Below are positions 19,653 to 56,183 of a stretch of DNA of 64,000 bases, in pieces. Position numbers and translations under genes: made by a program. The notes below the pieces were generated by a model. That model was not told where the DNA came from. It ran no database searches and was given only the letters and a program-made list of their open reading frames with translations. Source of the stretch: a virus; IMG/VR virus record IMGVR_UViG_3300024496_000013, positions 1 to 64,000 of that record, one strand, 5' to 3'. Numbering within the stretch: position 1 is the stretch's first letter; the number at the start of each line of letters is the position of its first letter.

Positions 19653-19660
19653 TATTTATT
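19653..19660 (-). promoter_or_regulatory. T4-type late promoter (AATAAATA) abutting a start codon
   Basis: The minus strand reads AATAAATA, then four bases, then ATG. The element lies in the stop region of the giant gene. It resembles the arrangement at 57928-57935. If transcription starts about 6 bases downstream, as in T4, the mRNA would begin at or inside the first ATG. Confidence 0.55.
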
Positions 19661-25600: not shown

Positions 25601-28600
25601 CTAGTTTTTGTATCAGTTTATATGTTCCGTTTTTGTTTTCAAATACGAATGTAGCTCCCTGGTCTACTCCTTTGAAGTTAGAAGCAGGAGCAGTAACAAA
25701 CATATTTGTGGATTCAGAACTTAATAGAATCTTGTAACCAAATTGATCGCCTGCGGAGATTTCTGTACTGTCAGTAAGATAAGAATTAACATTAACAGAA
25801 TCTATATGTTGAGAAAGTTTATATGTGTTATTGCTATCTCTATCATAGATAAACACCGCACCAGTCCTTGGCTGCTCTTCAGGATATTCTATAGACCAAA
25901 TCGAAGGATTACCTTCCGGTATAGTTCCTTTATCAGAATCTGCTGCCAATGTATAGTAGCTGTCGTTTCTCCTAACAGTATCTCCTTTGAGATATATTTG
26001 ATAGGATTTCCAGACACCTTTATACGAATCAAATGTCAGGCTATCTGCGTTAGGTGCTCCAATTATTAACTTGCTGCCATCGGCATTAAAACTTAATGAA
26101 TATCCATACGATGAACCTATTTTAATATTTTCTACATCATCAGTCGGTTTGATACCAGTTTGTATAGTAGATCCGTCATCTGGGGTAGCTGCTGTTACTG
26201 GCAGCATACCTGTATTCAATGAATCAATAGCTTCCCAATAGACTGTAGAATCACCAGTAATAACTCCGGGAGTTTCTGTGTTAGGTGATATATCTGATAG
26301 AGCTTTGTAATAATTGTTTGTGTGCCAAACAACTGTACCTGCCGGATAGAATTTGGTGCTGTCAAATATTCCAACAAAACCTTCATCTTGGAAATGCGTC
26401 CATTCGATTCCGTTAAATTTATAAAGATATACTCTACCAGTATCGTCTAGAGATCCCGGAGCACCAACTGCCATATAATAAGTTTCAGGAACAGCACCAA
26501 TCGAAGTTCCTAAAATCCTAATTTGATCTCCTACATTATAGCGTAAACCTTTAACACCAACGGTAGCTGAATATGAACCTTCTGCCCTCGTCAATGTAAA
26601 GATAGCACCATTACCCGGCTCGCTGATATCTTCACCAACAACATCGTTATATTGTGCTTCGCCGGAAGATGCTATGCCACTCCAAGAAATTCCTGGTACC
26701 GCTGTACCAAAGAAACTAAAATCAGATATAGAAGTATCTGTAGCTGATGTTACAGCATCGACTCTTATAGTTAAATCATTAGCTGGTGAATATCCGCCTA
26801 GTTCAGTTCCGGGAATAGTTATTATTGTACCTGGAGTATAAGTAACTCGCAACCCTGTAGTAATTGCTCTATCTCTCCAAGGCAGAGCATTTGAAGCAAA
26901 ATTAGATCCAGTAACTGGTTCCCAGAAATCAGTATCTGTAGGTAAGATAGGATTATGTGTTTCGTAATACTGTTCATCAGGTGGTGCTATCCCAGTAACT
27001 ATAGCAGTCACTTTAAAATAGCCTACAGGTAGTACTGGATTATATTGATAATAAACTATATCACCTGGATAATATGTAGTGTTGATATCCCAGGCACCTC
27101 GTTCAATTCTAGTATCTCTAATACAGGCATAGTATCTACCGTTATAACTAACAATGCTTCTTGCTGTATATCCCTGACCACTGTTTGTCAAATTAACATC
27201 AACATACAAATCCCTAAGTTTTGAAATTTGAAATACCGCTTGTTCAGATACGAGATTTGATTCTATACCGGTCACATTATTATATGTTTCCGATCCTAAA
27301 ATTTCACCTAAAGAATTTACTGCGTTGACTGTTACAATAAGATCATTTGTAGGTGTTACTCCACCAAGGCGACTACCAACTATCTTGATCCTGTCACCGA
27401 CCGCGTATCTTGTGCCACCGTTTCTAACTGTTACAACATATCTATTCAATGCTCTGTTGATGTCAAACGAAGCATTAGAACCGGGTTCGCTGACATCTAT
27501 ACCACTGATGTTTTCAAATATAGCATTATTAAGACCACTGACTCCCGATGCTGTTACTCCGAGGATTCCTCCTTCGGCATCTACAGTTGTGACCGTCAAT
27601 GTAACATCACCACTAGTTCCTTCAATTCCAGCTACTTTAGCTATAGATATACCAGAAGCAAAGTATTCACCGTGTCCCGGGCGAGGACTTATAATGGTAT
27701 CTCGTAAAACATATTGTCCTTCGGAATATTCAAAGATATCGATAGCACCTTGATTTCTATAACCTTGATTTATATCATAGATAGATTTGCCTAATGGGTT
27801 GGCTTTATGAATTACAGCTGGTTCCCAATCTTGAGAATTAAGATTTATCGTACTACCATCACCGTAAATAGATCTAACCGCTCTCCATAGTTTGCCAGCA
27901 TAAAGAACAGTGTCGTCTTGCTGATAGGTAGCATTTGGATCAAATGTTTCTCTATAATTACTAGGCACATAAGAAACGTTAGGTGAGCCTATCATCAACC
28001 AGCGACCATCTTCGCTAGTTGTCATTACTGTAGCATAAGAACCCAGATATGTGCTTTGAAGACCAGAATTAGGTACTAATACCTGTAACGGTATCAAGCC
28101 ACCCTGGCCCTGAGAATATACTATAACTGCCGACTCTCTAGTAACATCACCAGAAGTAACAACTGCGCCAGGGTTACCAACAATAGTGTTTCCTCTGCTG
28201 GCTAGATAGATCACACTGGCTCCTGTACCTGTCGGGAAAGCGATACCGTATTCGGATATCTGTGTAGGATTATATTGTTTCTGTCTATTCAATACTTGCC
28301 AATATCCATCTCCACTATCATCTAACCATATCTTAGATCCTACCGGTAATAAAGCAATTTTCTTAGATGTAAGATAAGATTGATCATCAATCCTTACTGT
28401 TTCAAATGTAGAGATATAACAGAAACTACTTTGATCTATAACAGGTTCTTTAGTAGTACCTGCTACAGCTATGATAATCGTCTTAGGATTAACTCCGGCT
28501 ACCTGATAAAAACCTGTTAGGTTTTCTATGTTAGTCAATCCAATAATATCGCCTACTTTAAAATTGTGTACAATATTAGTGATTAACGAAACAAATCCTG

Positions 28601-31600
28601 TTTCGACTGCTACTGCTTTACCTACTAAGATTGATGTTATAGTATATCTATATACATCCCAGCCTGTTGGTAGGGAGGTCAACCATACTAACGAACCTTC
28701 TTTAAATATTGTTATATCAAGACTGTATAATTCGTCAAGTGTAGTAACTGTAAAATCGACGTCGGCAGGATTTACATACCCCGCAGACATATTGTTTATA
28801 GGATAGTATTTTGTAGGAAATTTAAATTTCCTAGATCCTATCTTATAATCAGAGTCTTTTACCAATACAGATGTTTGATACTGCTTAATATCTATTCCTG
28901 TTGTATCTAATAACACAGGTTGCGGATTGATATTGATATTTTCTTTTTTGATCGAAACTTCTATTTCATTAGACTGATCAATACCACCTAGTCTACCTAC
29001 AAGAAATGCCCATTCTTCATCAAGAACGACAGCATCTGCTTCGATAGCACTCACCTTGTCAAATATCTTAGTGATAGAATTTGCTGTACCTTTTTCTCTT
29101 ATGAAGCCTTGGTATAATCTAAATTGAGTTACTTCATCTTCTGCTATATCCTGTAGGTATTCTCTTTGTTGATACCCAATAGAGTGTTGTGCTAACTTTT
29201 TCTGTTCGTTATCGATACCGATATAGTCTAGTTCGAAATAATCTTCTATTTGATTGATTTTATAATCAAAATTAGATACTAGACCTTTCTGAGGAAGATT
29301 ATCTAATCTTTCCCAATTATTAGAATTAAATTCAACGGAACCTTTTTGAAACTTCAAGCTGGTATAGTAAAACTGTTTGTATTGTACTATATCTCCTAAT
29401 CTATAATCAGTAAACGGTTTCCAAGTTTCTATATTAACATCGTCATAGATGAATCCCGGACTTGTGTAGTCACCATCCCAGTCGGTGGTACGGAAACCTG
29501 CGACTTTGATTCTTTCTTGTCGATATCCTGGTGCCTTATCAAATATAACATCACCAAACACAGTTCTATCATTGAATACAACTACGTGTTCTTTGGTCAC
29601 ATAATTGATTTTAGCAAAATAAATTCCGTCTGTGCTATCAAGAGGTGTTAGTATAAACTTGTTAAATGTCCTATAAACCTGTATGTCCTTAGGTTGTATT
29701 TTTGTCCCGTCACTTCTTTGTATATTATAATCATAAAAATTATCAAGTAGATTATCAGCGACTCGACCAACTTTTTCTATAGTGATCGCAGACGCAGACG
29801 GGCTTAGTGAAATGATAGAACCATTGGCCCAATTATGAGTAGTCCAGAACATGAATTCTTTGCAACTAGTTTCCCAATCATTGGGTACTTGTAAATCTGT
29901 ATTAAAAGATTCAAATACCATTCCCTGGTCTTTGAGATATTCTCCATAACCAAGAAGGAAATCTACTACAGACTGTAAATCAGCGAATACAGTATTATAT
30001 GGCAGCACAGCCGGCTGATACTTAGAAAATTTACTTCTGTTAATAGCTGTAATCGATCCAACTATGGGAACCGACAGTATAGATACCCAAAGAGAACTTT
30101 CAAAATTTTCTGAGCTAGTATGAGCCTGTCTAGATCTGTAAAATTTACTTTGATATCTAATCAATGTTCCTGATGGATAGTATTGATTAGCAGTCCACTC
30201 TACAAAAGTTTCGCTAACACCGCCTACAGAAAATACAGGATCACTAGCTGTAGTCAATGGATGATAATATGTAAAAGCAGAAACTAATGTGTCATAGCCT
30301 GTGAGTTTCCAACCCGAAGATGTTTTTTCGATAATTACAGCCGAATAAGAAACAGTTTCTACTGGTGTGCTAACATTAAAAAATATCTCATAATCTTCAG
30401 AAGGAACAAAAATTCCTGAAGTTTTAGATTGAGGACTCTTGCTATCTAACAAATACTTCTGTTGATTTTTATCTACGAACCCACCTATCTTGTTAGATAA
30501 TTTTACTTTAAAATTATCAGAATTAAATTTTGAAGCTAATTCTACAGATGCTACAGAATTAGATTTTAGATAATCAACGACATAATTTACGAGACCTTTT
30601 GGTTTTGTAACATCTAGTGTTGATTGATAAACTTCATCTAAACTAAGGAATTTTCCTGTAGACGTAGACACCATTTGATCCATATCATTTTTAGTCAACA
30701 GCGTTCTGTCAAAATTCAATGATACAGTCTGTAATGGTCGTAATAAAATAATTGCTTGTAATAGAGCGAAAGGATATCTGCCACTTTTTCTCCAAGCAGA
30801 TTCAGCCGGACCTATGTCGCCAAATACAAATGCTTCGGCAGGCTGTATGATAGCATAATTTATAATCGATCCAGATGACACAGGATCTAATAATCTACCC
30901 TCATCGTCAACTGGAAGATAAGAAAGCAAGTTTGGTCTCTTGAATCTAATATGAGTACCTGCTCTATTACCTTGTCTAATTACACCGTCTCTTATATCTT
31001 CCCACAACAATAAGTTTCCACTAGTGTACGGTGCTGGACCATACTCTTCTTCCCACCATGTTGGTTTTTCACTAAAACCTAGCATTTCCCATGGTCGAGT
31101 ATGAGGAGCATCAGTATCATATAGATAGATATAAATGCCTCGCCAGTATGCTGGCATTTTTTCAGTTCGAGTTATATCTGTGGCTTTAGAAAAGCTATAG
31201 GTGTACTGATTTTCGCTTTCAAAATAGTTATTAGCATAAGGATCTATTCCTAATGGATTAGCCCATCTTAAAAATTCTTGATTTAATACACTGTCTAATT
31301 GTGCTTTAGTGAATTCACCAGTCTTTCCATAACCGCCCAAAAGATTATCAAGATCTAAGAAATCAGGATTGTATTGAATCTTGATATTGTTATAAATTCT
31401 TTTTTCTAATTCTAAAAGTAGTTCATCTCTGAAATCATCATAAGCTACTATAATACTACCGTCATGCCCTCTTATCACTCTAGTAGGTTCTAGATATGTG
31501 TCGTCGAGATAAATCTCAGGTGTAAATTTTTTATATAATCCTAATTTAGTAGGAGTCATCGGCATAAAATTAAATGCCGTTGTATAATATTCTTTTATCT

Positions 31601-34484
31601 GTATCTGATCATTTTCTACTAAGTCTATCAGTAAACGAACAAACCCAAATGTAGAATCAAATTCATAATCTCTACCAACTAAAAGCTGTACGTTGTTGCG
31701 ATAAACATAAACAGCTTTTAATGATTCAGTAGATAAGTCAAATTTCTGAGAAAGAGCAAAAACTTTTATACCTTCGTCTTCTACAGTATAATCGATAGAA
31801 TTATACGCACCGCTACCAATCATGTCTGAATTAGCAAAAGGCGAATTACTATTTTTTGATTTGCTAATATGATCGATGATCTGATCAACAAATTTTACTG
31901 TATCTAGTTCAAACGGTAATTCTACAGCTAAATTTAAAAATTCTGATTTATATTTGTCATATTCTAAAGCAGCATAAGAAATAGCCTTGATTACATTAAT
32001 CTGTCTATCACAGACCAAAGGTAATGATATAGAAGGTACTCCAGAATGTTTTATAAATCTTCTACCGTAATAGAGGTAATCATCTATATCTCTAAGATTG
32101 CTTATACCAGGAAATTGTCCAGAAAAATCTCTAGATAATTCTACCATAGATCTTAGATGATCATTAACCTGGCCTAAAGTGAATTGTGCTACATCTTCAT
32201 TAAGTGGATTTCTTTCTAATGGCAACGGAAATTCATAAAAACCTAAATTAGGTTCAGCATCAGAATAAACTTTAATCATCAGTACATCATTTACAGCAAA
32301 CTCTCTGATAAATGTAAAAGTTCTTTTATCGTTGATGACAGTATCTGTGTACGAATCTTTGATTAAATCTCCGTTGAGATAGAAGAGAATTTTTTCTCTA
32401 GTAACTTGATCCCAAAAAACAGCATCAAACTCCACTGTGTTTGTAACTTCAGTAAAGGTATGAGTCTGTATTACTGCCTGACAATAATCTTCATCAAACA
32501 ATGACCAAGAATTCTTATGTACCCAACTGCCTAGCTCTTTTAACAGTCTGTAATAACCAAAATTTATATTTCTTGTTACGACTGTTGGTCCGGACTGATA
32601 GGTAAAGTTCTGTGTTTCAAAATCAAAATCAAAAAGTATATCGCCAGTATTATTGATATTAAGGTAACTGACTGCGAATCCTAATTCTTTGTCCACTACT
32701 CCCGCAGGATCAACTTTGTAACTTATCAATCTAGTTCCTTGGAAACTAGATGTTACATATTTTTGTGTATCTGAAAGGCTGACATTATCGCTATCAAATA
32801 TATCGAATAATGGTGCTTGGTTGACTGCTAGTTTTTCCTGGCTCTTCTTCCATACTGTTCCATCAAAATGATACATCTTGCCGGCATTTGTTTTGCCTTT
32901 AGTAACGATAAGACATTCTCCAGCTAGTGTTTCACTGTCATCTGCTTCTACTAGATTTATTTGTTTTCTGTTAACTGTGTTAGTGCTAGTCTGGATCGTG
33001 ACAAATTTAACAACATAGATCTTGTTATTGACCATATTGTCGTTGTCTGCTGTAAACAGAACTCTAGCTCCTTCAAACAACGGCACATTGTCGATATTAT
33101 ATCCAGCAGTGCCTTCTATAGTAGAAAACACATCAGTGGTAAAATCATCGATTAGATCTACGCTGTTCTTGGCTTTAGAACCATGGTTGAAAAGCTGTAG
33201 ATTAGTTTGGAATTCTATGATAGGACGTTTAGCTCTGCTGTCTTCAGCTAATCCCGCCGTGGTGCCATTTAATTGGGCAGAATATTCTATGACACTTCTA
33301 TGGAACCAACGATTGTAACGACTCCATGGATTCTTATCCAAGCTGGCACGATTGATGGTTATATAATCTTTTTTAGACGGATAGGTAGAAGCATCATCGA
33401 ATGGTTCTGTGTCAAAAGGCTGATCGTCAAACACCAATGCTCCGTAAGGATTTGGTATGGGAGGTAACTCTAAATCTGACAAATTAATCAGTTTGATACC
33501 TGTGCCTACTCCTTCTACTATCCAATAACCTTTTCTGTAGATTTCCGGAGAAGTTTTGCCTACAAATTCTACTCGTAGTCCATTGGTAAATTTTACACCG
33601 TTGCTGCTTTGATAATTGAGCTTACCGATAATATCTTTTTCTACATCGAGATATGTATTATCTAATACGTTAGCTATCCTAAAAGAACCTATACGGTTGA
33701 TATTAGTTCCACTTTGATAGTAGAGCATGTCTGGTGCATCATTAGGAACTTTAAATGTGATTTTGCCAACTTCAATGCCGTTATTAGTAACACCCTTGTT
33801 GTAATCTGATGGTGTTCCTAGCAGTGTTGTAAGATAATCGATCGTGTCTGAAGTTCTAATATGGAAACCGTCGCCTGGACAATTAACATTAAATTCATAT
33901 GTCTGCCCTCGATACAAAGTTATCGCAGGATTTCTTTTTAATCCGTCAGGAAAAAATAACCATTCATTCTGTCCTTCGGTTACTACTTTGTATGAAGATA
34001 CTACTGATTGTTCTTGTCCTAATACCTGTACAGGATCTGGTCCGGCAGGAAGCCAATAGTATTCTCTATAATTAACAAACTTGTCTAGGTCGAGAGGTGG
34101 AGTCCATGTATAGTGCTGCTGACCTGTAGTTAGATCATCTCTTTCATTTTTGTTATTAAAAAATTTTAATTGATTTTTTAGATCTACATAATCAAAAAGA
34201 TTTTTAGGTTTTTTATTTTCATCGTAGATCACTACGCCGGGTTCAAATTGATAAGCGTGTCTTAGGCTTTGAGCGACATCTAAGTAAACGTCACTAGTAT
34301 TATATGTGCGACCATAATTGCGCCCAATGTAACCGTTTAATCTATCTAAGGTACCTGGCTGTATTAAAGGATCTAAAGTAGCTGACAAAAATTTGTCATT
34401 AGACGAAGACCTAAAAATTTCAGGTAATAGTTCTACGGTCCTCCTTAGAGGTAAACCACTTTGTTTAAAAACTTTTTTATCCAT
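19659..34484 (-). CDS. Giant multidomain baseplate/tail protein (4941 residues), gp7-position
   Basis: This gene takes up nearly a quarter of the window. The N-terminus (LPEIFRSSSNDKFLSATLD, residues about 17-35) resembles large baseplate proteins of aquatic T4-like phages. It sits downstream of gp6, where T4 has gp7 (about 1030 residues). Visible modules: a cupredoxin-like segment at about 190-275 (FNVNCPGDGFHIRTS, then VPNDAPDMLYYQS) without obvious copper ligands; at least five short carbohydrate-module-like repeats (near 1435, 1690, 2200, 2710 and 2830; pattern Y..GD.V.Y....Y); FG-GAP-like beta-propeller repeats at about 2800-3060 (IIGAPN, FVTAPAS, IIVGSPKYL); three YxVGDxIxIxG repeats; and Gly-rich GSGYTSAPTV repeats near 3500 and 3890. 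It is intact, with no frameshift seen. A glycan-binding baseplate arm is inferred. Confidence 0.7.
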   Translation of the reverse strand: MDKKVFKQSGLPLRRTVELLPEIFRSSSNDKFLSATLDPLIQPGTLDRLNGYIGRNYGRTYNTSDVYLDVAQSLRHAYQFEPGVVIYDENKKPKNLFDYVDLKNQLKFFNNKNERDDLTTGQQHYTWTPPLDLDKFVNYREYYWLPAGPDPVQVLGQEQSVVSSYKVVTEGQNEWLFFPDGLKRNPAITLYRGQTYEFNVNCPGDGFHIRTSDTIDYLTTLLGTPSDYNKGVTNNGIEVGKITFKVPNDAPDMLYYQSGTNINRIGSFRIANVLDNTYLDVEKDIIGKLNYQSSNGVKFTNGLRVEFVGKTSPEIYRKGYWIVEGVGTGIKLINLSDLELPPIPNPYGALVFDDQPFDTEPFDDASTYPSKKDYITINRASLDKNPWSRYNRWFHRSVIEYSAQLNGTTAGLAEDSRAKRPIIEFQTNLQLFNHGSKAKNSVDLIDDFTTDVFSTIEGTAGYNIDNVPLFEGARVLFTADNDNMVNNKIYVVKFVTIQTSTNTVNRKQINLVEADDSETLAGECLIVTKGKTNAGKMYHFDGTVWKKSQEKLAVNQAPLFDIFDSDNVSLSDTQKYVTSSFQGTRLISYKVDPAGVVDKELGFAVSYLNINNTGDILFDFDFETQNFTYQSGPTVVTRNINFGYYRLLKELGSWVHKNSWSLFDEDYCQAVIQTHTFTEVTNTVEFDAVFWDQVTREKILFYLNGDLIKDSYTDTVINDKRTFTFIREFAVNDVLMIKVYSDAEPNLGFYEFPLPLERNPLNEDVAQFTLGQVNDHLRSMVELSRDFSGQFPGISNLRDIDDYLYYGRRFIKHSGVPSISLPLVCDRQINVIKAISYAALEYDKYKSEFLNLAVELPFELDTVKFVDQIIDHISKSKNSNSPFANSDMIGSGAYNSIDYTVEDEGIKVFALSQKFDLSTESLKAVYVYRNNVQLLVGRDYEFDSTFGFVRLLIDLVENDQIQIKEYYTTAFNFMPMTPTKLGLYKKFTPEIYLDDTYLEPTRVIRGHDGSIIVAYDDFRDELLLELEKRIYNNIKIQYNPDFLDLDNLLGGYGKTGEFTKAQLDSVLNQEFLRWANPLGIDPYANNYFESENQYTYSFSKATDITRTEKMPAYWRGIYIYLYDTDAPHTRPWEMLGFSEKPTWWEEEYGPAPYTSGNLLLWEDIRDGVIRQGNRAGTHIRFKRPNLLSYLPVDDEGRLLDPVSSGSIINYAIIQPAEAFVFGDIGPAESAWRKSGRYPFALLQAIILLRPLQTVSLNFDRTLLTKNDMDQMVSTSTGKFLSLDEVYQSTLDVTKPKGLVNYVVDYLKSNSVASVELASKFNSDNFKVKLSNKIGGFVDKNQQKYLLDSKSPQSKTSGIFVPSEDYEIFFNVSTPVETVSYSAVIIEKTSSGWKLTGYDTLVSAFTYYHPLTTASDPVFSVGGVSETFVEWTANQYYPSGTLIRYQSKFYRSRQAHTSSENFESSLWVSILSVPIVGSITAINRSKFSKYQPAVLPYNTVFADLQSVVDFLLGYGEYLKDQGMVFESFNTDLQVPNDWETSCKEFMFWTTHNWANGSIISLSPSASAITIEKVGRVADNLLDNFYDYNIQRSDGTKIQPKDIQVYRTFNKFILTPLDSTDGIYFAKINYVTKEHVVVFNDRTVFGDVIFDKAPGYRQERIKVAGFRTTDWDGDYTSPGFIYDDVNIETWKPFTDYRLGDIVQYKQFYYTSLKFQKGSVEFNSNNWERLDNLPQKGLVSNFDYKINQIEDYFELDYIGIDNEQKKLAQHSIGYQQREYLQDIAEDEVTQFRLYQGFIREKGTANSITKIFDKVSAIEADAVVLDEEWAFLVGRLGGIDQSNEIEVSIKKENININPQPVLLDTTGIDIKQYQTSVLVKDSDYKIGSRKFKFPTKYYPINNMSAGYVNPADVDFTVTTLDELYSLDITIFKEGSLVWLTSLPTGWDVYRYTITSILVGKAVAVETGFVSLITNIVHNFKVGDIIGLTNIENLTGFYQVAGVNPKTIIIAVAGTTKEPVIDQSSFCYISTFETVRIDDQSYLTSKKIALLPVGSKIWLDDSGDGYWQVLNRQKQYNPTQISEYGIAFPTGTGASVIYLASRGNTIVGNPGAVVTSGDVTRESAVIVYSQGQGGLIPLQVLVPNSGLQSTYLGSYATVMTTSEDGRWLMIGSPNVSYVPSNYRETFDPNATYQQDDTVLYAGKLWRAVRSIYGDGSTINLNSQDWEPAVIHKANPLGKSIYDINQGYRNQGAIDIFEYSEGQYVLRDTIISPRPGHGEYFASGISIAKVAGIEGTSGDVTLTVTTVDAEGGILGVTASGVSGLNNAIFENISGIDVSEPGSNASFDINRALNRYVVTVRNGGTRYAVGDRIKIVGSRLGGVTPTNDLIVTVNAVNSLGEILGSETYNNVTGIESNLVSEQAVFQISKLRDLYVDVNLTNSGQGYTARSIVSYNGRYYACIRDTRIERGAWDINTTYYPGDIVYYQYNPVLPVGYFKVTAIVTGIAPPDEQYYETHNPILPTDTDFWEPVTGSNFASNALPWRDRAITTGLRVTYTPGTIITIPGTELGGYSPANDLTIRVDAVTSATDTSISDFSFFGTAVPGISWSGIASSGEAQYNDVVGEDISEPGNGAIFTLTRAEGSYSATVGVKGLRYNVGDQIRILGTSIGAVPETYYMAVGAPGSLDDTGRVYLYKFNGIEWTHFQDEGFVGIFDSTKFYPAGTVVWHTNNYYKALSDISPNTETPGVITGDSTVYWEAIDSLNTGMLPVTAATPDDGSTIQTGIKPTDDVENIKIGSSYGYSLSFNADGSKLIIGAPNADSLTFDSYKGVWKSYQIYLKGDTVRRNDSYYTLAADSDKGTIPEGNPSIWSIEYPEEQPRTGAVFIYDRDSNNTYKLSQHIDSVNVNSYLTDSTEISAGDQFGYKILLSSESTNMFVTAPASNFKGVDQGATFVFENKNGTYKLIQKLDSGQLDPNERFGSNICITPDNQTIAISAEGAESYKTTTFDANDTRFDRFVTNFKDSQGKTGKVYVFDKYVGKFVLSEIFDEGLNTNEDFGKSLSASNDSIIVGSPKYLSLDPAFATTRIGRIQKFTKKAGVKPWTVIRQQTNGIDIDKLKNLAIYDAVNNRKIADLDIIDPFKGKILSIADQDIDYKTSYDPAVYSTGTVDNAIDAGQAWMDDNVGKIWWRTSTAKYLDYEQNDFVYKTANWGSLAYGASIDVYEWVETIYRPSEWAAMTGTTAGFEEGISGTPLYPDDSNYSYKQKLDSITGEVLYNVYYYWVRSKNTLPNNSTKTNSAGVIANYIANPTTAGIPFAAITDVDKISLYNLQGSINTDEFLLNIQFYKTDKNINLVHNEYTLLTEGSDEYPVEDIERKWIDSLVGEDILGRSVPDKDLPEKSKYGIANRPRQSMFINRNKAVQITVDYINNILSRYPLADSISYEYLNLTAPLPKSNLNLYDQSFASYKELSTIATAKIKPALLSANIANGKITSVDVIDGGRGYRVPPYVEIDGSGTGAKIKTVINKLGVVTGVIIENSGTKYINARLNVRPFSVLIESDVNSNGYWAIYSWDDKTETFYKTATQAYDTTKFWIPVDYWKSGFSNTSRIKYTIPGLYRESGLTVEIGDLVRVDEYGSGGWAVFETVDPIATDLQNKYRLVGRKNGTIQIVNKFYNTAAESTGYDLTQSYDSNKYDTSFSIEFRNILKAVKENIFIDELSNEWNKLFFVSIHYIFSEQLYVDWAFKTSFLNATHNVGYFSNRINYKSDNLSSYQKYIEEVKPYRTKIRKYTSRYLGQELASSPISDFDLPPVFDINSQSIVPVDSTRLEIDQYPWKFWKDNHAFVVKDIVLTYSGKNYTSVPKVVIEGGGGNGAEAQAFVSSGVVTHIRMIKHGSGYTSAPTVTLVGGVGTVIENSAKAVAIIGQSKARTFDMSIKFDRYSKTPKFKNLGNNFLETESFVCPGTKNTFTLKYPPTTDKSKIAVFLKHPNTAAGTDGAKLLNSQYLIKIFKTNISGTEVLTGQLLLNAAPPQGATVTVHYEKNDEILDALNRIDKYYQPTSGMLGVEKNTIDGEIISDYSQLVTGIDFGGVIVQGSMFDVGAGWDAVPWGLEGWDSSGDMNTDFYVAADGVNRTFYLPEPPPLGKEITIYLRKKLEYNSVRLDDPFFDYYDGSTIQINGLKEAPEHAVMQTFVGDGSTIAVTIPPGVQIDKDDTLIFRPIESDGTVALVGRNIDTAISGGDLTNIGGAYSTATGKTASEIVLDGQKFISPEQVPAPEENVPGQVLDTLSIKVFHTDRAGAPALLTRIYFGDGQTDLYEIGQKVTERKSVTVYVDKVKKDNGLDYTISFETNQVRFVGVLPPAGSTIEVVSMALGGTEILDYKEFIADGLTRYYLTGASYFETGSIYATVDGQIVDAGFVNSKGQVNDLDQTLVEFGNPPEVNRKISIVVLSAESGSYSPLIKVNDQTITVTDIVQRIYPLESFINLGGSPTSNVLVERNGNLLTTVDTVIEIYSGNDSIKIGLDPFRNPGDIIDSQVKVFVNDNLLIFGIDYGFTAEDNTVTLFGKYDIGDIIRIEDYSNSNYEIKNNNIVFRTDLNLQLGDVLNVKWFEQYTTMDLTRDIFKGGELAYSLEKPVLGVSYVWVYVNGERATQDIDYYLSRNRNEIIFNPSFITTSTDVVEIISGSDMIYREPVSFEIFKDVLNKNYYSRYSLSNIKLVENLNYYDESMTLTDATALPVPKFDQPGIVTIGGEKIQYLAIDGNRLTGLRRGMFGTSVTPLFSAGTEVVITGYTEAIPYKDSQEKEDFVSDGTSLLIGPLTFIPAKSAVDGTGYRKEWPVDSIPEEYGPCDTIEVFVAGRRLNKDPVYVYDQTVGSHSPAGDVLVEAEFSVDGSTPYIRLTSAVEAATRITVVKRTGKLWYDVGNSSATTGEGLSNSKTSIVTFLQQKTTNLP

Positions 34485-48555: not shown

Positions 48556-49809
48556 ATGAGAATCAATGATATCTTAATCGAATCACAGGTCAAAGAAGCA
48601 CCACAAGGCATGCTCAAACGAGCTGGACTTGGTATAATGAGTAAATTTGGCAGTGATAAAGCTGCTGGTAAACTAGATACTGGTGCTATCGCTAATGCTC
48701 TAATGAGAGATTTTAACAGATTCCTTGGTGCTACTAAGCTAGAACCTGATGCTGATGCTGTACTACGTTTCCTACAAAGCAAAGGTTATCCATCTGATGG
48801 CGCTAAGATGGTTTTAGACAAAGAAGCTAACTCTGCTACTGGTAACAGAGCTCCGAAAGGTCCTATGGGCGGTGGCATCATGGGCAAGATGAAAGGCGCT
48901 GCTGGCTCTTTAGGCAACAGGCTAAAAGCTAATCCTGAACAGCCACAAGACAGGATTGAGCCAACAGGAGACGACGATGCGACAGCTACAGCTCAACCTA
49001 GCGCATCACAAGCACAACCAACAGCACAACCAACAGCAACAGCACAACCAACAGCAGCAGCACAACCAACAACAAAACCTAGCGCATCACAAACACAAAC
49101 GCCAGCGCAACAGAACACTAATAAAATTGATAAAAAAGCACGTAAAGCCGCAGGTAAAGCTGCTATGGCTACACAGCAGGCTGCAGCTGACGCTCAGAAC
49201 AAACCTGGATGGGCACGGACCGCTGATGATAAGATAAGAATACAGGCCGCAAAAGGTGTTAATGCTAATGCTGCCGGATCTTTTAAGTCAGGAGCAGCTA
49301 AAATCCGTTCTAAAGGTCTAAACATGAGCATGTACACTGAAGAAGCTCTTCCACAAGCTACACTAGACAAAGCATTCATGCAAGCTGCTCATGATGCTGC
49401 CAAGATGGGCTATGGACTAGATCCAAACACAGGTAATATCGTTGACCAAGGTGGTGCCGCACAAGGTCCTATGGGTGGAGGCAATCAAGGTGCTGCCCAG
49501 GGCGGTGGCAGTGCTTGGGACAGTTTTAAACAAGGTGTCGCTGGAGGTCTAACTGGACAGCAAGCAGGCGATGCTTCTGGTGGCGGACAAAGCGGTATAC
49601 AAGGTTCGCTAAACGTCAATGCGTTAACACAGCTATTGCCTAATGTCAATCCAGCTCAATTAAAAATGGCTGTGAGCACGGTCAAGAGCGGTGGACAGTT
49701 AAGTAGGACACATCAAGCAGTGCTAGCATCTGCTATGATCGATCTGATGAAAGCTGATCCTGCTACTACACAAAAAGCATTCACGCTGTTAAAACGAATA
49801 CAGGCTTAA
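48556..49809 (+). CDS. Putative internal head protein with capsid-targeting N-terminus
   Basis: The 417-residue protein begins MRINDILIES. This resembles the T4 capsid-targeting sequence of internal proteins (MKTYQEFIAE) in length, charge pattern and a terminal LxE site, which gp21 protease would cut after E9. A helical domain follows (residues about 10-95), then an Ala/Gln/Pro/Thr-rich linker with repeats of AQPT type (about 140-190). A basic Ala/Lys-rich part and a Gly-rich C-terminal region with a final helical segment complete it. A late promoter lies just upstream. Packaging and injection are inferred from the N-terminus. It ends tail-to-tail with the gp51-like frame, overlapping by 4 bases. 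Confidence 0.65.
   Translation: MRINDILIESQVKEAPQGMLKRAGLGIMSKFGSDKAAGKLDTGAIANALMRDFNRFLGATKLEPDADAVLRFLQSKGYPSDGAKMVLDKEANSATGNRAPKGPMGGGIMGKMKGAAGSLGNRLKANPEQPQDRIEPTGDDDATATAQPSASQAQPTAQPTATAQPTAAAQPTTKPSASQTQTPAQQNTNKIDKKARKAAGKAAMATQQAAADAQNKPGWARTADDKIRIQAAKGVNANAAGSFKSGAAKIRSKGLNMSMYTEEALPQATLDKAFMQAAHDAAKMGYGLDPNTGNIVDQGGAAQGPMGGGNQGAAQGGGSAWDSFKQGVAGGLTGQQAGDASGGGQSGIQGSLNVNALTQLLPNVNPAQLKMAVSTVKSGGQLSRTHQAVLASAMIDLMKADPATTQKAFTLLKRIQA
48997..49092 (+). repeat. In-frame tandem repeat coding AQPT-type linker
   Basis: The 15-base segment CCTAGCGCATCACAA occurs at 48997-49011 and again at 49078-49092. Several copies of a CAACCAACAGCA-type unit lie between them. The array encodes a Gln/Pro/Thr/Ala-rich linker. 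Its length probably varies between relatives by slippage. Confidence 0.85.
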
Positions 49810-50012
49810 AAGAAAGGCAGTCCAGAAGTCTTAGCGATTTCTATATTTTCTTTTACTAACTTCTGTATTATTTCTCTTTCCTCATAGCTGAGGTTCATGG
49901 CTTCGGTATAAGACATTCCTCCACGCAGGTACCATATACATCTAAAAGCTTCAAGTTTAACGTCTTTGGCCTGTTCGTCAAGGGCTTTCGTCTCAGCCAG
50001 GATTTCATCAAT
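49806..50012 (-). CDS. gp51-like hub assembly frame, no canonical start codon
   Basis: On the minus strand a frame encodes 68 residues from an ATT at 50012. It contains EAFRCIWYLRGGMSYTEAMN and ends KTSGLPFF. This resembles the small protein placed after gp26 in cyanophage-like T4 phages, annotated there as gp51, the hub assembly catalyst. The frame is open upstream to 50057, overlapping the end of gp26 in the -1 frame. It has no in-frame ATG, GTG or TTG before a very late internal ATG. The simplest route to expression is the -1 frameshift signal at 49983-50042. It ends 4 bases inside the convergent gene's stop region. Confidence 0.7.
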   Translation of the reverse strand: MDEILAETKALDEQAKDVKLEAFRCIWYLRGGMSYTEAMNLSYEEREIIQKLVKENIEIAKTSGLPFF

Positions 50013-50042
50013 CGTTAACGACGAAAGCCTGAACCGAAAAAA
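49983..50042 (-). promoter_or_regulatory. -1 programmed ribosomal frameshift signal in gp26
   Basis: Reading the minus strand in the gp26 frame, the slippery heptamer T TTT TTC is at 50042-50036, on codons F294-F295. It is followed by a 6-nt spacer (GGTTCA). A perfect 10-bp stem GGCTTTCGTC/GACGAAAGCC (50029-50020 with 49992-49983) with a 27-nt loop comes next. The gp26 stop TAA lies in the loop. A -1 shift enters the gp51-like frame directly and gives a fusion of about 371 residues. All three classic frameshift elements are present at standard spacing. Confidence 0.75.
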
Positions 50043-50920
50043 TCCGAGCTGTCCATGTTAAGATCTACGGACCATTCGTGCTCGCATTTGGAACATTTGG
50101 CTTTAAATGAGCTCATAGTTCCGCTTTCTTTGCTTTTGTTTACAGCATCAGTGATAGATTGGAATATAGATTTATCAGCGTTGGTTAAAAATTCTCTGAT
50201 AAACTCTGGATTATCTGTGCTACCTTCTGTACTTTCGATCTTACTAATACAATTAACAGCAGAATCGATAGTCAAATCAGTGAGCTTGACAAAACTTTCT
50301 TGGAACATCCTAACTTTTTCCTGTTCCTCGATACGATCATCATTGATGATAGAAAATATACGCTGGTGTTCAAATGCTTTTAAGCTGACTTTGGTCAATT
50401 GATTGTAGTCCATAGGACGTAGATGAACCAACATACTATCGCCTATCTCGACAGTTTTATTGAAATTTACTTTGTTAAGACTATCTAACACATTCCTTAG
50501 ATCAACAGCTAGATCATTTACAGTTTCGCATTTAGGACAACCTGCGGTGACATCCATTTCTTCGCCGTAGGTAGCGATACGGATAGCTACTAAGATAGCA
50601 TCAACATCTAAGCTAGGCACTGCCCAACCATCTTTGATGTTAGGTACACAGCTACGTATAACTTCTACAGTAGCAGCACCGTTCATCAGCGCATCTGGTG
50701 TTTTAAACAACAGTTCATCTCGAGCTGTCATAGCAAACACAGGATACTCGTTGTTGATAGTTTTTTCTAAAGCACCTTCTGGGTAAAACTCTCCTTTGCT
50801 AGGCAGCGAAATCCAAATTTTGGGCTGTCGAAAAAATGCTGCTAGAGGATTTTTATCTGTTTTCACAGCAGGTGCTGGCTGCGCAGATGTTGGGTTTAAG
50901 TTGTTGATAAATTCTGCCAT
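50015..50920 (-). CDS. 26: Baseplate hub protein gp26-like with zinc-finger cysteines
   Basis: The 301-residue protein has the gp26-type core: WISLPSKGEFYPEGAL (about 36-51), TARDELLFKTPDALMNG (65-81) and CVPNIKDGWAVPSLDVDAIL (91-110). It has two CxxC pairs, C128/C131 and C276/C279, which probably bind one zinc. In T4, gp26 is a hub assembly factor next to gp51. The last residues are DFFGSGFRR; the two Phe codons form the slippery site for a -1 shift into the gp51-like frame. A late promoter lies at 50953-50960. It is divergent from the tape-measure-like genes. Confidence 0.85.
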   Translation of the reverse strand: MAEFINNLNPTSAQPAPAVKTDKNPLAAFFRQPKIWISLPSKGEFYPEGALEKTINNEYPVFAMTARDELLFKTPDALMNGAATVEVIRSCVPNIKDGWAVPSLDVDAILVAIRIATYGEEMDVTAGCPKCETVNDLAVDLRNVLDSLNKVNFNKTVEIGDSMLVHLRPMDYNQLTKVSLKAFEHQRIFSIINDDRIEEQEKVRMFQESFVKLTDLTIDSAVNCISKIESTEGSTDNPEFIREFLTNADKSIFQSITDAVNKSKESGTMSSFKAKCSKCEHEWSVDLNMDSSDFFGSGFRR

Positions 50921-50960: not shown

Positions 50961-50998
50961 TGCGTAGATTTCTGGCATTTTCATAATTGGTAGGAAAG

Positions 50999-53509
50999 AT
51001 GGCCATACAAAAAGTACAAATCCTGGGTGGTGAACTAGACGGTGTCGTTATTGAAAACGCTGCCAGCGAAGCTACCTTACAGGAAATTATCAAATCGGTC
51101 AATTCTATCAACAAATCCATGGGCGGCAGTTCTGGTGGCGGTGGAGGCGGTGGTGCTGCTAACAGAGCAGACAATACTGATAAAGCCAAATCTGAATGGG
51201 GTAAAAAACTAGCTAAAGGCATAGGTGCTTTAGCAGGAACTACTACTAATCTCGCTGGCATGATAGCCAGCGGCAGCGACAAGATGAGTGAATATTCAGC
51301 GGCGCTGAATAATGGACTGATCAAGAATTTGCCTTTCGTTGGAGAAACACTTGGTGCTCTAGGAGATGTGTTTGTCCAAGGTGTTAAAGTACTAGAAGGT
51401 TGGAACGATAATCTTAAAAAATCATCGTCATATGGTGCTAATTTTAACAACAGCATCATGGAAATGAGATCAGTAGCAGCCGGTCTTTACCTAGACATGG
51501 ACGGACTTAGTCAATTAATAGCTAAACGCAGCAAAGATTTTGCTATGCTAGGACGAGGAGTCACTGAAGGTGCGAGAGAAGTTTCAGATTTTTCTCGAGA
51601 AGTTTATAAAGGTTCAGGCGGTGTTGGTGAAAGGATGCTTAACTTGGGCAGAACTGTTGACCAACTAGCAGACAACATGACCTCTTGGTATACCATGGTC
51701 AACCGAGGTGTGAGAGACAATAGGATACAAGGACCAGCAGCAGCCCAAGCCTTTGAAAGTTACATGAAAAACATCATGTTGATTTCTAGGATGACTGGAG
51801 AAAGCGTAGAGGATCTACAGGCAAAAGCTGAAAAAGAAAGTCAAAACGCAGCTTTCCAATTAAAATTAAACAGCTTGGCTCCTGAAGCTAGAAACCGTAT
51901 CATGCAACAGATGACCTATTTCCAAAGCATGTATGGCGAAACTGGAGCTGAACTGTTTAGAGCACTGTATCTAGGAGTAGCACCACAGACTGATGCTGCT
52001 CAATTGTTAATGACACTAAATCCTCAACTGGTAGCAGAAGCAAGACGAGGACAAGCTCTAGCTAAATCAGGACTAGATGAAGAAGAATACGGCAAGCGTA
52101 TGAGAAGAAGCAGAGCCGAAAGTCTATTCCAATCTGCTAGACTAGGTAAAGCCAATGACGCACTTTATTCTATGATAGCCAGTGGTGCGCCTGGCATGAA
52201 AGAAATAGGGCAGTCCACGGAAGCATTAAACAGGACTACTCTAAAAATTGCGAACATGAAATCTGTAGATGAGATAGAAGGATTCTTGTTACAGCTTGAA
52301 AATCAAAATAAAGAAGGTGATCCATTAACTAGGATATTAAATGCGTTTGGACTCAGCGCACACGACTTCCAGACAAAAGTGATAGATGTGCTATTGCCGA
52401 TATTAGAAGGTATAGGTAGCGAATTGATCAAAGCTGGTGTAGCTGACAAGATGAAAGAAATGGGCACGACACTAGGCCGATGGGTAGGTGAGTATCTACC
52501 CGATGCTGTAGGATTTTTTGAAGAACTTACAGATGCTAATGGGTGGAAAAGATGGAATGTCAAGATCGAATCATGGTTTAGCACTATAACTGCTTATCTA
52601 AGATATGCTATAAGGAAAGCCTTTGAAAGTCCTGAAGCAGATAATCAACTAAAACAAGAATTAGAAGAAGTACTCAAACAGAAAGAACGTGATCTAGCAG
52701 CTATTCCTAAACCAGCAACACCGATAGCTGACGCAGCAAGACGTGGTTATGCTGCGGCATTAGAAACACAAAGAAGAGAAGCACGTGAAGCAGCCGCTGG
52801 CGGCGGTGCTCCTATTCCCGGAGGACCTGGACCTGCTCCACAAGGTTATACTTATGGTCCTCAGGAAAACATGACCGACGGCAGCAACGGTCGACTACCA
52901 GACAGCGCATTAGCTAGCATAGGACAAGGACGTCATAGATTACAACCAAGCGCGGCTAGAGCTTTTATAGCCATGGCTGATGCTGCTCGTCGAGAAGGTA
53001 TCAATCTAAATGTAACTGATTCATATAGAACATTCGCAGAACAAGTAGACGTTAAAAATAGAAAACCCACACTGGCTGCTCGACCAGGATTTTCTAAACA
53101 TGGTTGGGGATTAGCAACAGATATCAATGTACGTGATCCTAAAGTTTTTGATTGGCTAAAAAGGAATGCTACTAGATTTGGATGGGAAGGGCCTTTACAA
53201 CAACCATACGAACCATGGCATTGGCAATTTAAAGGAATGAGTACTGGTACCTTAGGTACTATGGGAAAATTGTTTGGAGAGTTTGGAGCAGGAACTCCTG
53301 TCGAACTACACGGACGAGAAGCTGTTATCACACCTAGCCAGATGGAAGATATAATCTCAACAGGCGGCAAGGTTAATGTAGGAGAAATGATCAATGATCT
53401 AAATTCTAAGATGAACACTCTTATCAGCATCTATAAAGAAAAAATAGACATTAATAAATCTCACCTAGAAACTTTAAGACATCAATCAGGTAATATGATC
53501 TATGCCTAA
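50999..53509 (+). CDS. Tape-measure-like tail protein with C-terminal M15 peptidase domain
   Basis: The ATG at 50999 was chosen over an upstream in-frame TTG (50987); TAGGA precedes it. The 836-residue product has a hydrophobic, helical N-terminal half with a Gly run and a long coiled-coil-like middle. A VanY-type M15 metallopeptidase domain covers about residues 636-748. Its zinc ligands are H701 (SKHGWGLATD), D708 and H741, and the catalytic E738 lies in EPWHW. A tape-measure-type end follows (FGEFGAGTPVELHGREAVIT). M15 enzymes cut peptide cross-links in peptidoglycan, here probably to let the tail tube pass the wall. It is paralogous to the next gene at both ends. Confidence 0.8.
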   Translation: MAIQKVQILGGELDGVVIENAASEATLQEIIKSVNSINKSMGGSSGGGGGGGAANRADNTDKAKSEWGKKLAKGIGALAGTTTNLAGMIASGSDKMSEYSAALNNGLIKNLPFVGETLGALGDVFVQGVKVLEGWNDNLKKSSSYGANFNNSIMEMRSVAAGLYLDMDGLSQLIAKRSKDFAMLGRGVTEGAREVSDFSREVYKGSGGVGERMLNLGRTVDQLADNMTSWYTMVNRGVRDNRIQGPAAAQAFESYMKNIMLISRMTGESVEDLQAKAEKESQNAAFQLKLNSLAPEARNRIMQQMTYFQSMYGETGAELFRALYLGVAPQTDAAQLLMTLNPQLVAEARRGQALAKSGLDEEEYGKRMRRSRAESLFQSARLGKANDALYSMIASGAPGMKEIGQSTEALNRTTLKIANMKSVDEIEGFLLQLENQNKEGDPLTRILNAFGLSAHDFQTKVIDVLLPILEGIGSELIKAGVADKMKEMGTTLGRWVGEYLPDAVGFFEELTDANGWKRWNVKIESWFSTITAYLRYAIRKAFESPEADNQLKQELEEVLKQKERDLAAIPKPATPIADAARRGYAAALETQRREAREAAAGGGAPIPGGPGPAPQGYTYGPQENMTDGSNGRLPDSALASIGQGRHRLQPSAARAFIAMADAARREGINLNVTDSYRTFAEQVDVKNRKPTLAARPGFSKHGWGLATDINVRDPKVFDWLKRNATRFGWEGPLQQPYEPWHWQFKGMSTGTLGTMGKLFGEFGAGTPVELHGREAVITPSQMEDIISTGGKVNVGEMINDLNSKMNTLISIYKEKIDINKSHLETLRHQSGNMIYA

Positions 53510-56183
53510 TAGCAATGTAGAAATAATCATATCAGGAACCAGAGGCGTTATAGACAACGCAGTTTCTGAAGCCAGCTTACAAGAACTTCTTAAAGCTATA
53601 CAGAAACTTGACAAAAATTCAGGTGGAGAAACTAACAGAGGAAGCACTGCCGGTGCTGCCGCAGCTTACGAAAAAAGCTCAAGCGAAATAGCGGATTCTA
53701 TATCAAAATTAGACAGCAAAGCTGCTAATGCTATCAAAAAAAGCGTAGACATGTTCAAAGGTGCTATGGACAGAAACACTAATACTTTTAGTGATTTTGC
53801 CAGAGTAATGAACGATACTTTTATCAAGAAAGTTCCGTTAGTTGGCGGGCTAGTTGGAGGTTTCCTTGATATATTTGTGATGACCACAGCGGTAGTAGAA
53901 GGTTGGAACTCGACTCTTAAAAAGACTTCTGCTGTTGGTGCTAACTTTGGTAATAGTGCGTTGGCTCTACGTCATGCTGCTGCTAATGCCAGGATGGATT
54001 TAGATGAATTTGCTAATCTGGTAGTTTCTAATGCTCAAGGGTTATCTCTATTATCTGGAGATGTTAGATCAGGCGCTGAACGCCTATCTATGAGTTTTGA
54101 AAATCTATATAATGGAACTAGTGGTGCTAGAGAAAGACTGTTACAGCTGGGAATAAATCAAGAAGAATCTGGAGATATGTTTGCTAAATGGTTGATAATG
54201 ACCAATCAGGGCAATCAAGAAAATACACAGAGGACAGCTAATCTTAACAAAGCGTTTGTTGGTTATATAGAAAACCTAGATGCGCTAGCATCTATGTCAG
54301 GAGTTGACAGAAAATCTCTAGCTCAAAAAGTAGCAGCAGTTGAACAAGATGTGATCTATCAAAGATCATTGGCAAAATTAGATCCACAAGAACAAGGCAA
54401 GATGAGAACTAGACTGACTAGGATGATAGCTCTGTTTGGAGACCAAGGTGCCGACTTACACAAAGCACAGGCGGCAAACACTACACCAGTCACGCAAGGT
54501 GCTTTCCAAATATTGGGATTAGCACAGGGTATGAGACAGGTTCTAGAAGAAGATCTAAGACAGGCTAGAGATCATAATGTAACCGAAGAAGAATACAACA
54601 AAGGTGAATCTGAAAGAACTTTTAAATTGTATCGAGTAGGATTACAGCATTTTAAAAACAACAGGTCGTTCTTTATGGCCACACTGGCCACAGCTGAAGG
54701 TCAACGACAATTAGGCCCTGGCATGACTAAAATGTTACAAGATCTTCTTAGTTTTGGTGATATCAGCAAGATGACTGATGCTGAACTTAGGAAAGCTATA
54801 GAAGACAGTAGAAATAAAAAAAACAAATACGAAGGTATAACAAAAATCCTAGATACATTTAGTTTAGCATTCAAAGATGCTAGGAAAAACTTTTTTGACA
54901 CATTGATACCTGTATTAAAAGGTATGGGAGAAGCATTAAAACCTCTACCTGCTTTATTAAAACAAGCAGGTGAAGATCTTTCTAAATGGATCAAAGATGT
55001 TGCTATGCCCGCTATGACTGCTGTATATGATAATATGTTTAGCGAAGAAGGCAGGAACAAGATATTTGTACATCTCGAAGGCTGGGCAAGATTGATGTAT
55101 GTAGAAATAAAAAGGCTTATATCTGATTTTCTTGTAGCCCAAGGAGCTCCAGACAGTGTCGTAAGTTTATTTTTAGGAAAATATGACGATAATTTACGAA
55201 GAGCTCAAATGAAAAATGCGTTAGGAAGAGCAGCAGCCGGAGGCGGCATGACTTCTTCTGGAGGAGCTACAACAATACAAAGAGATGCTGGTTCTGTGAT
55301 AGCACCAGACGCATCAACTGAATCAGAAACTATGACAATAGCTAACACTATTGGTGTTAATACTCAACAATTTGTCGCTCCGTCTGCTGGTGGCAAGATG
55401 ACCGGTACATATCTTACACAAGATCAAACTAGAGAACTGGTGGTGCCCGGCGCTTCTGAGTTTGGATCTGCTACGGTTCCATTAGAAAATTCCACAAGAA
55501 GATGGGAATTCGCTAAAGGTCATGAACCATTTGGTGCTCCATTTAATGGTTTGATCACTGTAGCTGACATCGAAAAACAAATTGTAGAATTATGGGATGA
55601 AAAAGCTAATTCCGGAGAAGGTATAACTCTAAGGATTTCGGGATTTGATAAAGAAAAAAGTAAAGCTATTTTTGATGCTATACGAGGAAAACCAGTAACT
55701 GCTGGACAGACTATAGGTATAGGACCAAACAACCTGTTAACAGGGTCTTGGTTTAGTTATCTAACACCTAATACTGTACAAGTACAAGGATTTAGAGGAA
55801 AACCAGAAAATGAAAGGACGTTTGATCCTAGAATATTTTTTCCAGGTGAAGGACCAAAAGCAAATAATCCAGCAGCATCGACTCGAGCAGCTCCGGGAGC
55901 ACCGCCCGCTTCTCGTGCGTATGGATCTCTAGGTGCTACAGGCAAGCTGTTTGAAGAATTTGGAGCAGGTACAAAAGCGATTCTACATGGCAGAGAAGCT
56001 GTAGTTACACCTCAACAGCTGGAAGGAATAGTTAATAGCAAAGATCAAATCGAGATGGTACAATTCATTTCTAGTTTAAATACTAATATGGCCAATCTTC
56101 TAGAAATAGCCAGACAAGAACTATATATAGATCAAAACAAAGCACATGTTCAAAAAGGAGTTAAAATGCCTTACATGGCATAA
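53502..56183 (+). CDS. Second tape-measure-like tail protein with possible dead M23 domain
   Basis: The 893-residue protein overlaps the preceding gene by 8 bases and shares its ends: VSEASLQELLKAIQK at the start and FEEFGAGTKAILHGREAVVT near the C-terminus. The middle is helical. At about residues 655-760 a beta segment (GHEPFGAPFNGLITV, then GKPVTAGQTIGIG and LTGSWFSYL) follows the order of M23/LytM peptidases. It lacks the HxH and HxxxD zinc ligands, so it would be catalytically inactive. The M23 reading is tentative. The two genes may make a paired tape measure or two tail-lumen proteins. Confidence 0.7.
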   Translation: MPNSNVEIIISGTRGVIDNAVSEASLQELLKAIQKLDKNSGGETNRGSTAGAAAAYEKSSSEIADSISKLDSKAANAIKKSVDMFKGAMDRNTNTFSDFARVMNDTFIKKVPLVGGLVGGFLDIFVMTTAVVEGWNSTLKKTSAVGANFGNSALALRHAAANARMDLDEFANLVVSNAQGLSLLSGDVRSGAERLSMSFENLYNGTSGARERLLQLGINQEESGDMFAKWLIMTNQGNQENTQRTANLNKAFVGYIENLDALASMSGVDRKSLAQKVAAVEQDVIYQRSLAKLDPQEQGKMRTRLTRMIALFGDQGADLHKAQAANTTPVTQGAFQILGLAQGMRQVLEEDLRQARDHNVTEEEYNKGESERTFKLYRVGLQHFKNNRSFFMATLATAEGQRQLGPGMTKMLQDLLSFGDISKMTDAELRKAIEDSRNKKNKYEGITKILDTFSLAFKDARKNFFDTLIPVLKGMGEALKPLPALLKQAGEDLSKWIKDVAMPAMTAVYDNMFSEEGRNKIFVHLEGWARLMYVEIKRLISDFLVAQGAPDSVVSLFLGKYDDNLRRAQMKNALGRAAAGGGMTSSGGATTIQRDAGSVIAPDASTESETMTIANTIGVNTQQFVAPSAGGKMTGTYLTQDQTRELVVPGASEFGSATVPLENSTRRWEFAKGHEPFGAPFNGLITVADIEKQIVELWDEKANSGEGITLRISGFDKEKSKAIFDAIRGKPVTAGQTIGIGPNNLLTGSWFSYLTPNTVQVQGFRGKPENERTFDPRIFFPGEGPKANNPAASTRAAPGAPPASRAYGSLGATGKLFEEFGAGTKAILHGREAVVTPQQLEGIVNSKDQIEMVQFISSLNTNMANLLEIARQELYIDQNKAHVQKGVKMPYMA

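Follow-up and report, generated by a model that had tools for sequence, protein, structure and literature searches.

A conserved slippery heptamer at the end of gp26 points to a probable programmed −1 frameshift and a putative lambda G/GT-like chaperone pair in relatives of phage T4

Behind the gp26 homologue of a jumbo T4-like phage lies a gp51-like reading frame in the −1 phase whose head offers no start codon. We examined the locus in a window of 64,000 nucleotides (positions 1 to 64,000 of IMG/VR record IMGVR_UViG_3300024496_000013), and "the window" below means this whole stretch. The preliminary description of this DNA had proposed a −1 ribosomal frameshift that joins the gp51-like tail to gp26, with a role similar to that of lambda G/GT. 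Xu, Hendrix and Duda reportedly described the lambda gpG/gpGT tail assembly chaperones, together with their counterparts, in 2004. The elements of the locus are as follows.

50015..50920, minus strand: gp26 homologue (301-residue zero-frame product, putative short chaperone form); PF12322 T4_baseplate, 6.1e-17; phrog_150 baseplate hub, 6.4e-23
50036..50042, minus strand: slippery heptamer T_TTT_TTC (codons GAT TTT TTC); T_TTT_TTY in 112/112 distinct relative junctions
50030..50035, minus strand: spacer GGTTCA, 6 nt; window sequence
50020..50029, minus strand: 5′ arm of a 10-bp stem, GGCTTTCGTC, pairing perfectly with GACGAAAGCC; loop 27 nt
50015..50017, minus strand: gp26 stop codon TAA, in the loop of the stem; window sequence
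49983..49992, minus strand: 3′ arm of the 10-bp stem, GACGAAAGCC; stem retained in relative L005, where one pair differs by a compensatory change
49806..50036, minus strand: −1 frame tail, gp51-like, 76 residues after the slip plus stop; dN 0.26 and dS 1.56 against L005; helical in the AF2 model

The in-frame T TTT TTC that had been noticed near the end of gp26 is indeed present at 50042-50036 on the minus strand and has the canonical X_XXY_YYZ form. Its codons GAT TTT TTC specify gp26 residues 293-295 of 301, and its phase is that required for a simultaneous −1 slip. A canonical −1 signal also includes a stem or pseudoknot about 5-9 nt downstream of the heptamer. The window has such a structure, a 10-bp stem after a 6-nt spacer, which is not universal among relatives; its coordinates agree with the earlier account of the spacer, the perfect pairing and a 27-nt loop holding the gp26 stop, and the fusion anticipated at about 371 residues comes to exactly that length (295 + 76). 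Taking 41 ORFs of the window as genes, we counted 98 in-frame X_XXY_YYZ heptamers in 20,638 codons, and just one of them, at the gp26 end, is T_TTT_TTC. Two other ORFs, 3477-4412 and 6637-6993, also carry a heptamer near the end, followed by a −1 frame exceeding 200 codons; in each case that frame is merely the next overlapping ORF.

Judged from the sequence, a programmed −1 ribosomal frameshift at the end of gp26 very probably yields a minor, long form of gp26. Most ribosomes would read gp26 to its TAA and produce the 301-residue protein, while a fraction would slip back one base on U_UUU_UUC, with both tRNA-Phe re-pairing in the −1 frame. In this lineage the stem-loop 6 nt downstream would aid the slip, and the slipped ribosomes would make a 371-residue fusion ending in the helical gp51-like tail. 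Together the two forms would serve as chaperones of tail assembly in the manner of lambda gpG/gpGT, with the tape measure protein coated by the part common to both and tail tube subunits recruited by the long, rare form. The site, the conservation of its phase, the coding nature of the −1 tail, the single gp26-family gene in the searched records and the homology to T4 gp26 are supported directly; the occurrence of frameshifting, its efficiency and the chaperone role we infer.

We compared the junction with those of relatives. A protein search returned 65 phage records with a gp26 relative, all less than 60% identical to the window gp26, of which 13 were fetched; 4 of 11 records were fetched from one further search and 8 of 701 matches from another. 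IMG/VR was scanned with six gp26 queries, giving loci L001-L019, L040-L119 and L120-L197, of which the cyanophage-type loci L040-L119 are the best 80 of 276 matches. We call "jumbo-type" the loci found via the window or a jumbo-phage gp26 and "cyanophage-type" those found via the gp26 of S-PM2; the hosts are mostly not known. In 107 jumbo-type and 80 cyanophage-type loci, gp26 was followed to its stop by a single script; 10 of the jumbo-type loci come from annotated records and the others from IMG/VR, where many repeat one contig. Distinctness was judged over 150 nt by a length-safe rule, giving 55 jumbo-type and 57 cyanophage-type junctions; this set leaves out T4, six records whose tail is in the +1 frame, and LR756511, which are distant or off-pattern. 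Since the 112 junctions are related to each other, conservation is stated as counts and no probability is quoted.

Each of the 55 distinct jumbo-type junctions has T_TTT_TTY (53 TTC, 2 TTT) in one and the same phase, and each of the 57 distinct cyanophage-type junctions, drawn from the best 80 of 276 matches, has T_TTT_TTC in that phase. The distance from the heptamer to the gp26 stop is 10-40 nt in the jumbo-type and exactly 10 nt in 57/57 cyanophage-type junctions (best 80 of 276). The −1 frame runs on beyond the gp26 stop in 112/112; it closes after at least 45 codons in 110 and is still open at the contig end in two. Aligning the junction across relatives had been suggested as a check on heptamer and stem alike: the heptamer is kept (55/55 jumbo-type and 57/57 cyanophage-type, the latter from the best 80 of 276), whereas the stem is not a conserved part. 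The same heptamer counts lend support to the initial proposal of a gp26-gp51 fusion with a lambda-like role.

The −1 frame of the window is open from 50057 to a stop at 49808-49806 (minus strand) and has no ATG, GTG or TTG within its first 40 codons after the slip. Its in-frame ATGs lie only deep inside, at 49916 and 49898. The frame had been presented as a start-less one of 68 residues; the start-less head holds over those 40 codons, while the length is corrected to 70 codons past the gp26 stop. When the window sequence (L001) is compared with L005, the −1 frame past codon 15 gives a dN of 0.26 against a dS of 1.56, and the other two frames lack such a contrast. Over 154 pairs of 70-97% identity, third positions account for 1960 of 3065 substitutions in jumbo-type and 1204 of 1980 in cyanophage-type tails. 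By these substitution patterns, the −1 tail is protein-coding and under purifying selection. The AlphaFold model of the tail is helical throughout (mean pLDDT 89.0).

A coding tail might be made as a separate small protein, gp51 being translated by termination-reinitiation or internal initiation after the gp26 stop, with the T-run conserved as the coding of two phenylalanines (FF). An ATG does occur within the first 13 post-slip codons in 36/57 cyanophage-type (best 80 of 276) and 17/55 jumbo-type junctions, which leaves room for separate initiation at these junctions; the annotation of S-PM2 starts gp51 at an ATG of this kind. The window, however, has no start codon over the 40 codons noted above, and 20/55 jumbo-type and 13/57 cyanophage-type junctions (best 80 of 276) have no ATG, GTG or TTG in the first 13. 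In favour of the frameshift, F294 and F295 are among just 13 invariant columns in 17 jumbo-type gp26 proteins, whose identity to the window falls to 27%. Coding for FF does not need the exact heptamer with a T before it, and within the window FF is written in varied ways (TTT TTT 14 times, TTC TTT 12, TTT TTC 7, TTC TTC once). The base preceding FF is nonetheless T in 112/112 junctions, across nine codons (GAT, AAT, AGT, ACT, CGT, CAT, TAT, GCT and TCT), the background use of T-ending codons for those residues being 0.29-0.85 in the window ORFs. We therefore regard a separately initiated gp51 as improbable.

Slippage of RNA polymerase on the T-run, which would change the frame in the mRNA itself, is less probable still. 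The run is homopolymeric, and it reaches seven T in XacN1, RAS14 and pf16; its phase is, however, fixed to the reading frame in 112/112 junctions, with exactly six T in 110/112. This fixed phase argues against transcriptional slippage, since a slipping polymerase is indifferent to phase, and the stems, where present, lie at the spacing of ribosomal frameshift signals. Six T is also short for slippage by RNA polymerase. A sequencing or assembly error or a decaying gene, common causes of split reading frames, can practically be dismissed, because the junction is identical in four IMG/VR contigs (L001-L004, perhaps related samples), which makes a sequencing slip unlikely, the same arrangement occurs in ten annotated jumbo phage records, and the tail has the low dN relative to dS given above.

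In locus L001, whose sequence here is that of the window, the 70 nt downstream of the heptamer have a folding energy of −21.1 kcal/mol (z −2.0). The region ranks within the best 0.8% of the folding windows taken over gp26 and the tail. In L005, whose arms GGCTTTCGAC/GTCGAAAGCC differ from GGCTTTCGTC/GACGAAAGCC by one compensatory pair, the corresponding fold is better than that of all its windows. A universal stem is ruled out, as only 18/55 jumbo-type and 21/48 cyanophage-type segments rank within the top 5% of folds at the locus they come from; the fold is worse than the median in 14/55 and 4/48, respectively (cyanophage-type segments from the best 80 of 276 in both counts). In many of the other jumbo-type relatives the stem is a different one and is shifted, its 5′ arm lying 3-6 nt beyond the heptamer. 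This shifted stem, scored in 35 loci, has a covariation score of 0.277, against 0.157 when shuffled and at most 0.140 when slid; its number of double-change pairs was matched by 31/500 shuffles. RaK2/CBB-type phages are mostly without a convincing stem. For the cyanophage stems, the covariation score is above shuffles (0/500 reach it) and the count of double-change pairs is not (452/500 and 160/500 reach it).

The cyanophage-type loci L040-L119 contain no fewer than three different stems at overlapping places, namely AAGTATGGCTC/GAGTCATACTT, AGCCCTC/GAGGGCT and a long TTGTTYTATAATA stem. This would fit repeated replacement of the helper structure next to an unchanging slip site. Because of these different stems, we do not claim a pooled cyanophage structure. 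From the sequences compared, the stem looks like a lineage-specific helper and the heptamer like the constant part of the signal.

The −1 tail, searched as a single sequence, had no PHROG match (phrog_634 or the C-terminal part of phrog_150), whereas S-PM2 gp51 matches phrog_634 at 1.9e-27. Profiles of the tail aligned weakly with cyanophage gp51 by hhalign (32%, 4.8e-4). Fusion profiles aligned through the junction with the cyanophage fusion (96.7%, 4e-10) and with RaK2/CBB-type phages (100%, 1.3e-65), and their link to T4 gp51 was weak (30%, 5.5e-4); five divergent jumbo sequences were left out of the fusion profiles. None of the ten jumbo phage records inspected annotates the fusion. The tail appears there as a shortened "hypothetical protein" or "predicted ORF" in eight records and as nothing in two; with the fusion unannotated, the long chaperone is missing from these annotated proteomes. 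The stop of the window tail overlaps that of the convergent plus-strand gene 48556-49809 (at 49806-49809), a tail-to-tail arrangement with no spacer.

T_TTT_TTY with a −1 tail was also found in five of the eight further records (drawn from 701 matches), namely pf16, ACP17, VH7D, OLIVR6 and P19, and two of these, VH7D and P19, belong to the Straboviridae. LR756511 has TTTTTTC in frame about 70 nt before the stop, with the −1 tail open. In the Ackermannviridae VP-1 (L213) and Kevin (L215), gp26 ends in GTTTTTC or GGTTTTC with the −1 tail open and with no strict in-frame X_XXY_YYZ; these T-rich ends resemble the GTTTTT motif published for other myovirus families. In Stenotrophomonas phage IME-SM1 (L211, 1471-2313), the annotated frame of the gp26 end disagrees with relatives, and the gp51-like tail lies +1 to the annotation.

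The family assignment of gp26 is clear, with 62.5 bits against PF12322 (curated cut-off 24.5), and its AlphaFold (AF2) model has a mean pLDDT of 86.6. One PF12322 gene is present in the 150,707-base record of the window and one in each of six other contigs of 129-289 kb, which are fragments and hence no proof of absence. Direct comparison was less informative: none of three BLASTP pairings of the window gp26 or its tail with T4 gp26 or gp51 was significant, Foldseek of gp26 and the tail against the PDB gave no match at E<=0.001, and NCBIfam gave no match for the window proteins. A profile search of PDB sequences returned 11 weak matches (best E 0.037), none of them a phage chaperone. The gp26 fold aligns with the HK97 tail assembly chaperone 2ob9_A at rank 13 (Z 5.3, rmsd 4.9, 99/107 residues), a score in the ambiguous range; the BFVD matches are T4-like baseplate hub proteins and add no function. 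Passages of PMC3004832 list gp26 and gp51 among the T4 hub assembly chaperones. A chaperone role for the short and long forms of gp26 is proposed from the homology to gp26/gp51, the lambda parallel and the weak match to the HK97 2ob9 fold. The best reading is that gp26/gp51 form the lambda G/GT-like tail-assembly-chaperone pair of these phages, made through programmed −1 frameshifting.

Like lambda gpG/gpGT, the window locus has a −1 slip site near the end of the upstream gene that would add a C-terminal tail from another frame. Unlike in lambda, the slip site is U_UUU_UUC, the protein belongs to PF12322 (gp26) and the gene is divergent from tape-measure-like genes; gp26 is likened to gpG by arrangement and is not filed as a homologue. 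In lambda, according to passages of PMC5009743, the short chaperone form is in excess and the short:long ratio is crucial for tail assembly. The same source (Atkins et al. 2016, PMC5009743) says, in one passage, that G-T frameshifting is conserved among long-tailed phages "except T4". That cyanophage-type, jumbo-type and some Straboviridae phages all carry the slip site suggests a lambda-like arrangement retained among both close and remote relatives of T4, which makes the role of gp26/gp51 in T4 hub and tail assembly approachable as a ratio problem.

T4 itself departs from this pattern. Its gp26 and gp51 are of the same family as the window gp26, both matching PF12322, and are paralogues (BLASTP 2e-6); the long form is a separate in-frame gene 51, where in the window one gene plus a frameshift would serve. 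T4 gp26 ends without a slip heptamer, reading GAG TTC TTT GAG TTA CTA TAA, and gene 25 occupies the −1 frame that follows. T4 gp51 spans positions 13-280 of the 282 of phrog_150, tail included, and the small gp51 of S-PM2 matches positions 240-281. As T4 gp51 reaches the region matched by S-PM2 gp51, it looks, from these alignments, like a second, in-frame copy of gp26 plus the tail. This agrees with a passage of PMC3037559 in which cyanophage gp51 has only about 20% of the usual length and is without the first ~200 residues. S-PM2 (Kyanoviridae) resembles the window in having TCT TTT TTC GCA, then a stop, with gp51 in the −1 frame; the stem sequences and the gene order differ, and many cyanophages have an ATG just after the gp26 stop.

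A third arrangement, with the tail in the +1 frame, occurs in six distant records (L029, L031, L034, L035, L036 and L037): Mel-JY01, LR756508 (uncultured phage), Flavobacterium immuto, RM378, SP-15 and GXN1. Their gp26 ends are mostly T-rich, for example TTT TTT TGG, TTT TTT CAC and TTC TTT CGT, a composition that suggests +1 or −2 shifting. In a tree of 32 gp26/gp51 proteins, T4 gp26 and gp51 group together (0.85) inside frameshifting lineages, and five +1 members form a group (0.74); with moderate support and a midpoint root, the order of events that we read from this tree is an indirect one. We hold with moderate confidence that this is one orthologous chaperone gene whose decoding mode changed more than once: the −1 slip at U_UUU_UUY is widespread and probably ancestral in gp26 of the T4 superfamily, the SP-15, GXN1, immuto, RM378 and Mel-JY01 lineages arrive at that same tail through +1 (or −2) shifting, and T4 lost the slip, its long form being hard-wired by duplication into gp51. 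If true, the exception of T4 to G/GT frameshifting is a secondary loss, and the slip site kept in many T4 relatives may explain why T4 has two separate genes.

The T4-like chaperone genes were reportedly identified by Vladimirov, Gautam and Davidson in 2022 (Virology 566:9), under a title said to argue for a mechanism other than frameshifting. A passage on that work in the PRFect paper speaks of a short gene plus a longer fusion gene. In passages of PMC12846349 (2025), poly-T slip signals in T4-like chaperone genes are treated as known, citing Vladimirov et al. 2022; with the chaperone genes of that work, this makes the frameshift principle already known. The Vandenendeviridae and Andersonviridae chaperone loci of PMC12846349 share a T-rich slip site with the window, and a passage there reports a conserved GTTTTT with the −1 tail open in every allele checked by the authors. 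The motif is GTTTTT there and T_TTT_TTY here. Within the part of the literature covered, no description of this slip site in jumbo phages or cyanophages appeared, and we do not claim its absence from print. The present comparison contributes the wide distribution of the site, its occurrence in jumbo phages, fusions that annotation misses and three apparent ways of decoding within a single family, all or part of which Vladimirov et al. 2022 may already describe.

Finally, gp26 on the minus strand is divergent from the tape-measure-like gene 50987-53509. The preliminary description had placed it beside two tape-measure-like genes, as counterpart of chaperone pairs that precede tape measures. The adjacency stands; a position upstream in one operon does not, the genes being on the opposite strand, and one of the two products has no tape measure match. 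The product of 50987-53509 matches a tape measure PHROG only at residues 627-753, a stretch that also matches endolysins, and that of 53502-56183 has no PHROG match at E<=0.01. The usual, not strictly defining, G/GT position on the same strand just upstream of the tape measure is thus not found in the window; two distant relatives, SP-15 and Flavobacterium immuto, do have gp26 and the tail ahead of an annotated tape measure gene. The products of 50987-53509 and 53502-56183 are large, adjacent and share a C-terminal motif, HGREAV.TP.Q, and they look paralogous. Elsewhere in the window, 19659-34484 is a single ORF of 4941 codons, nearly one quarter of the whole stretch.
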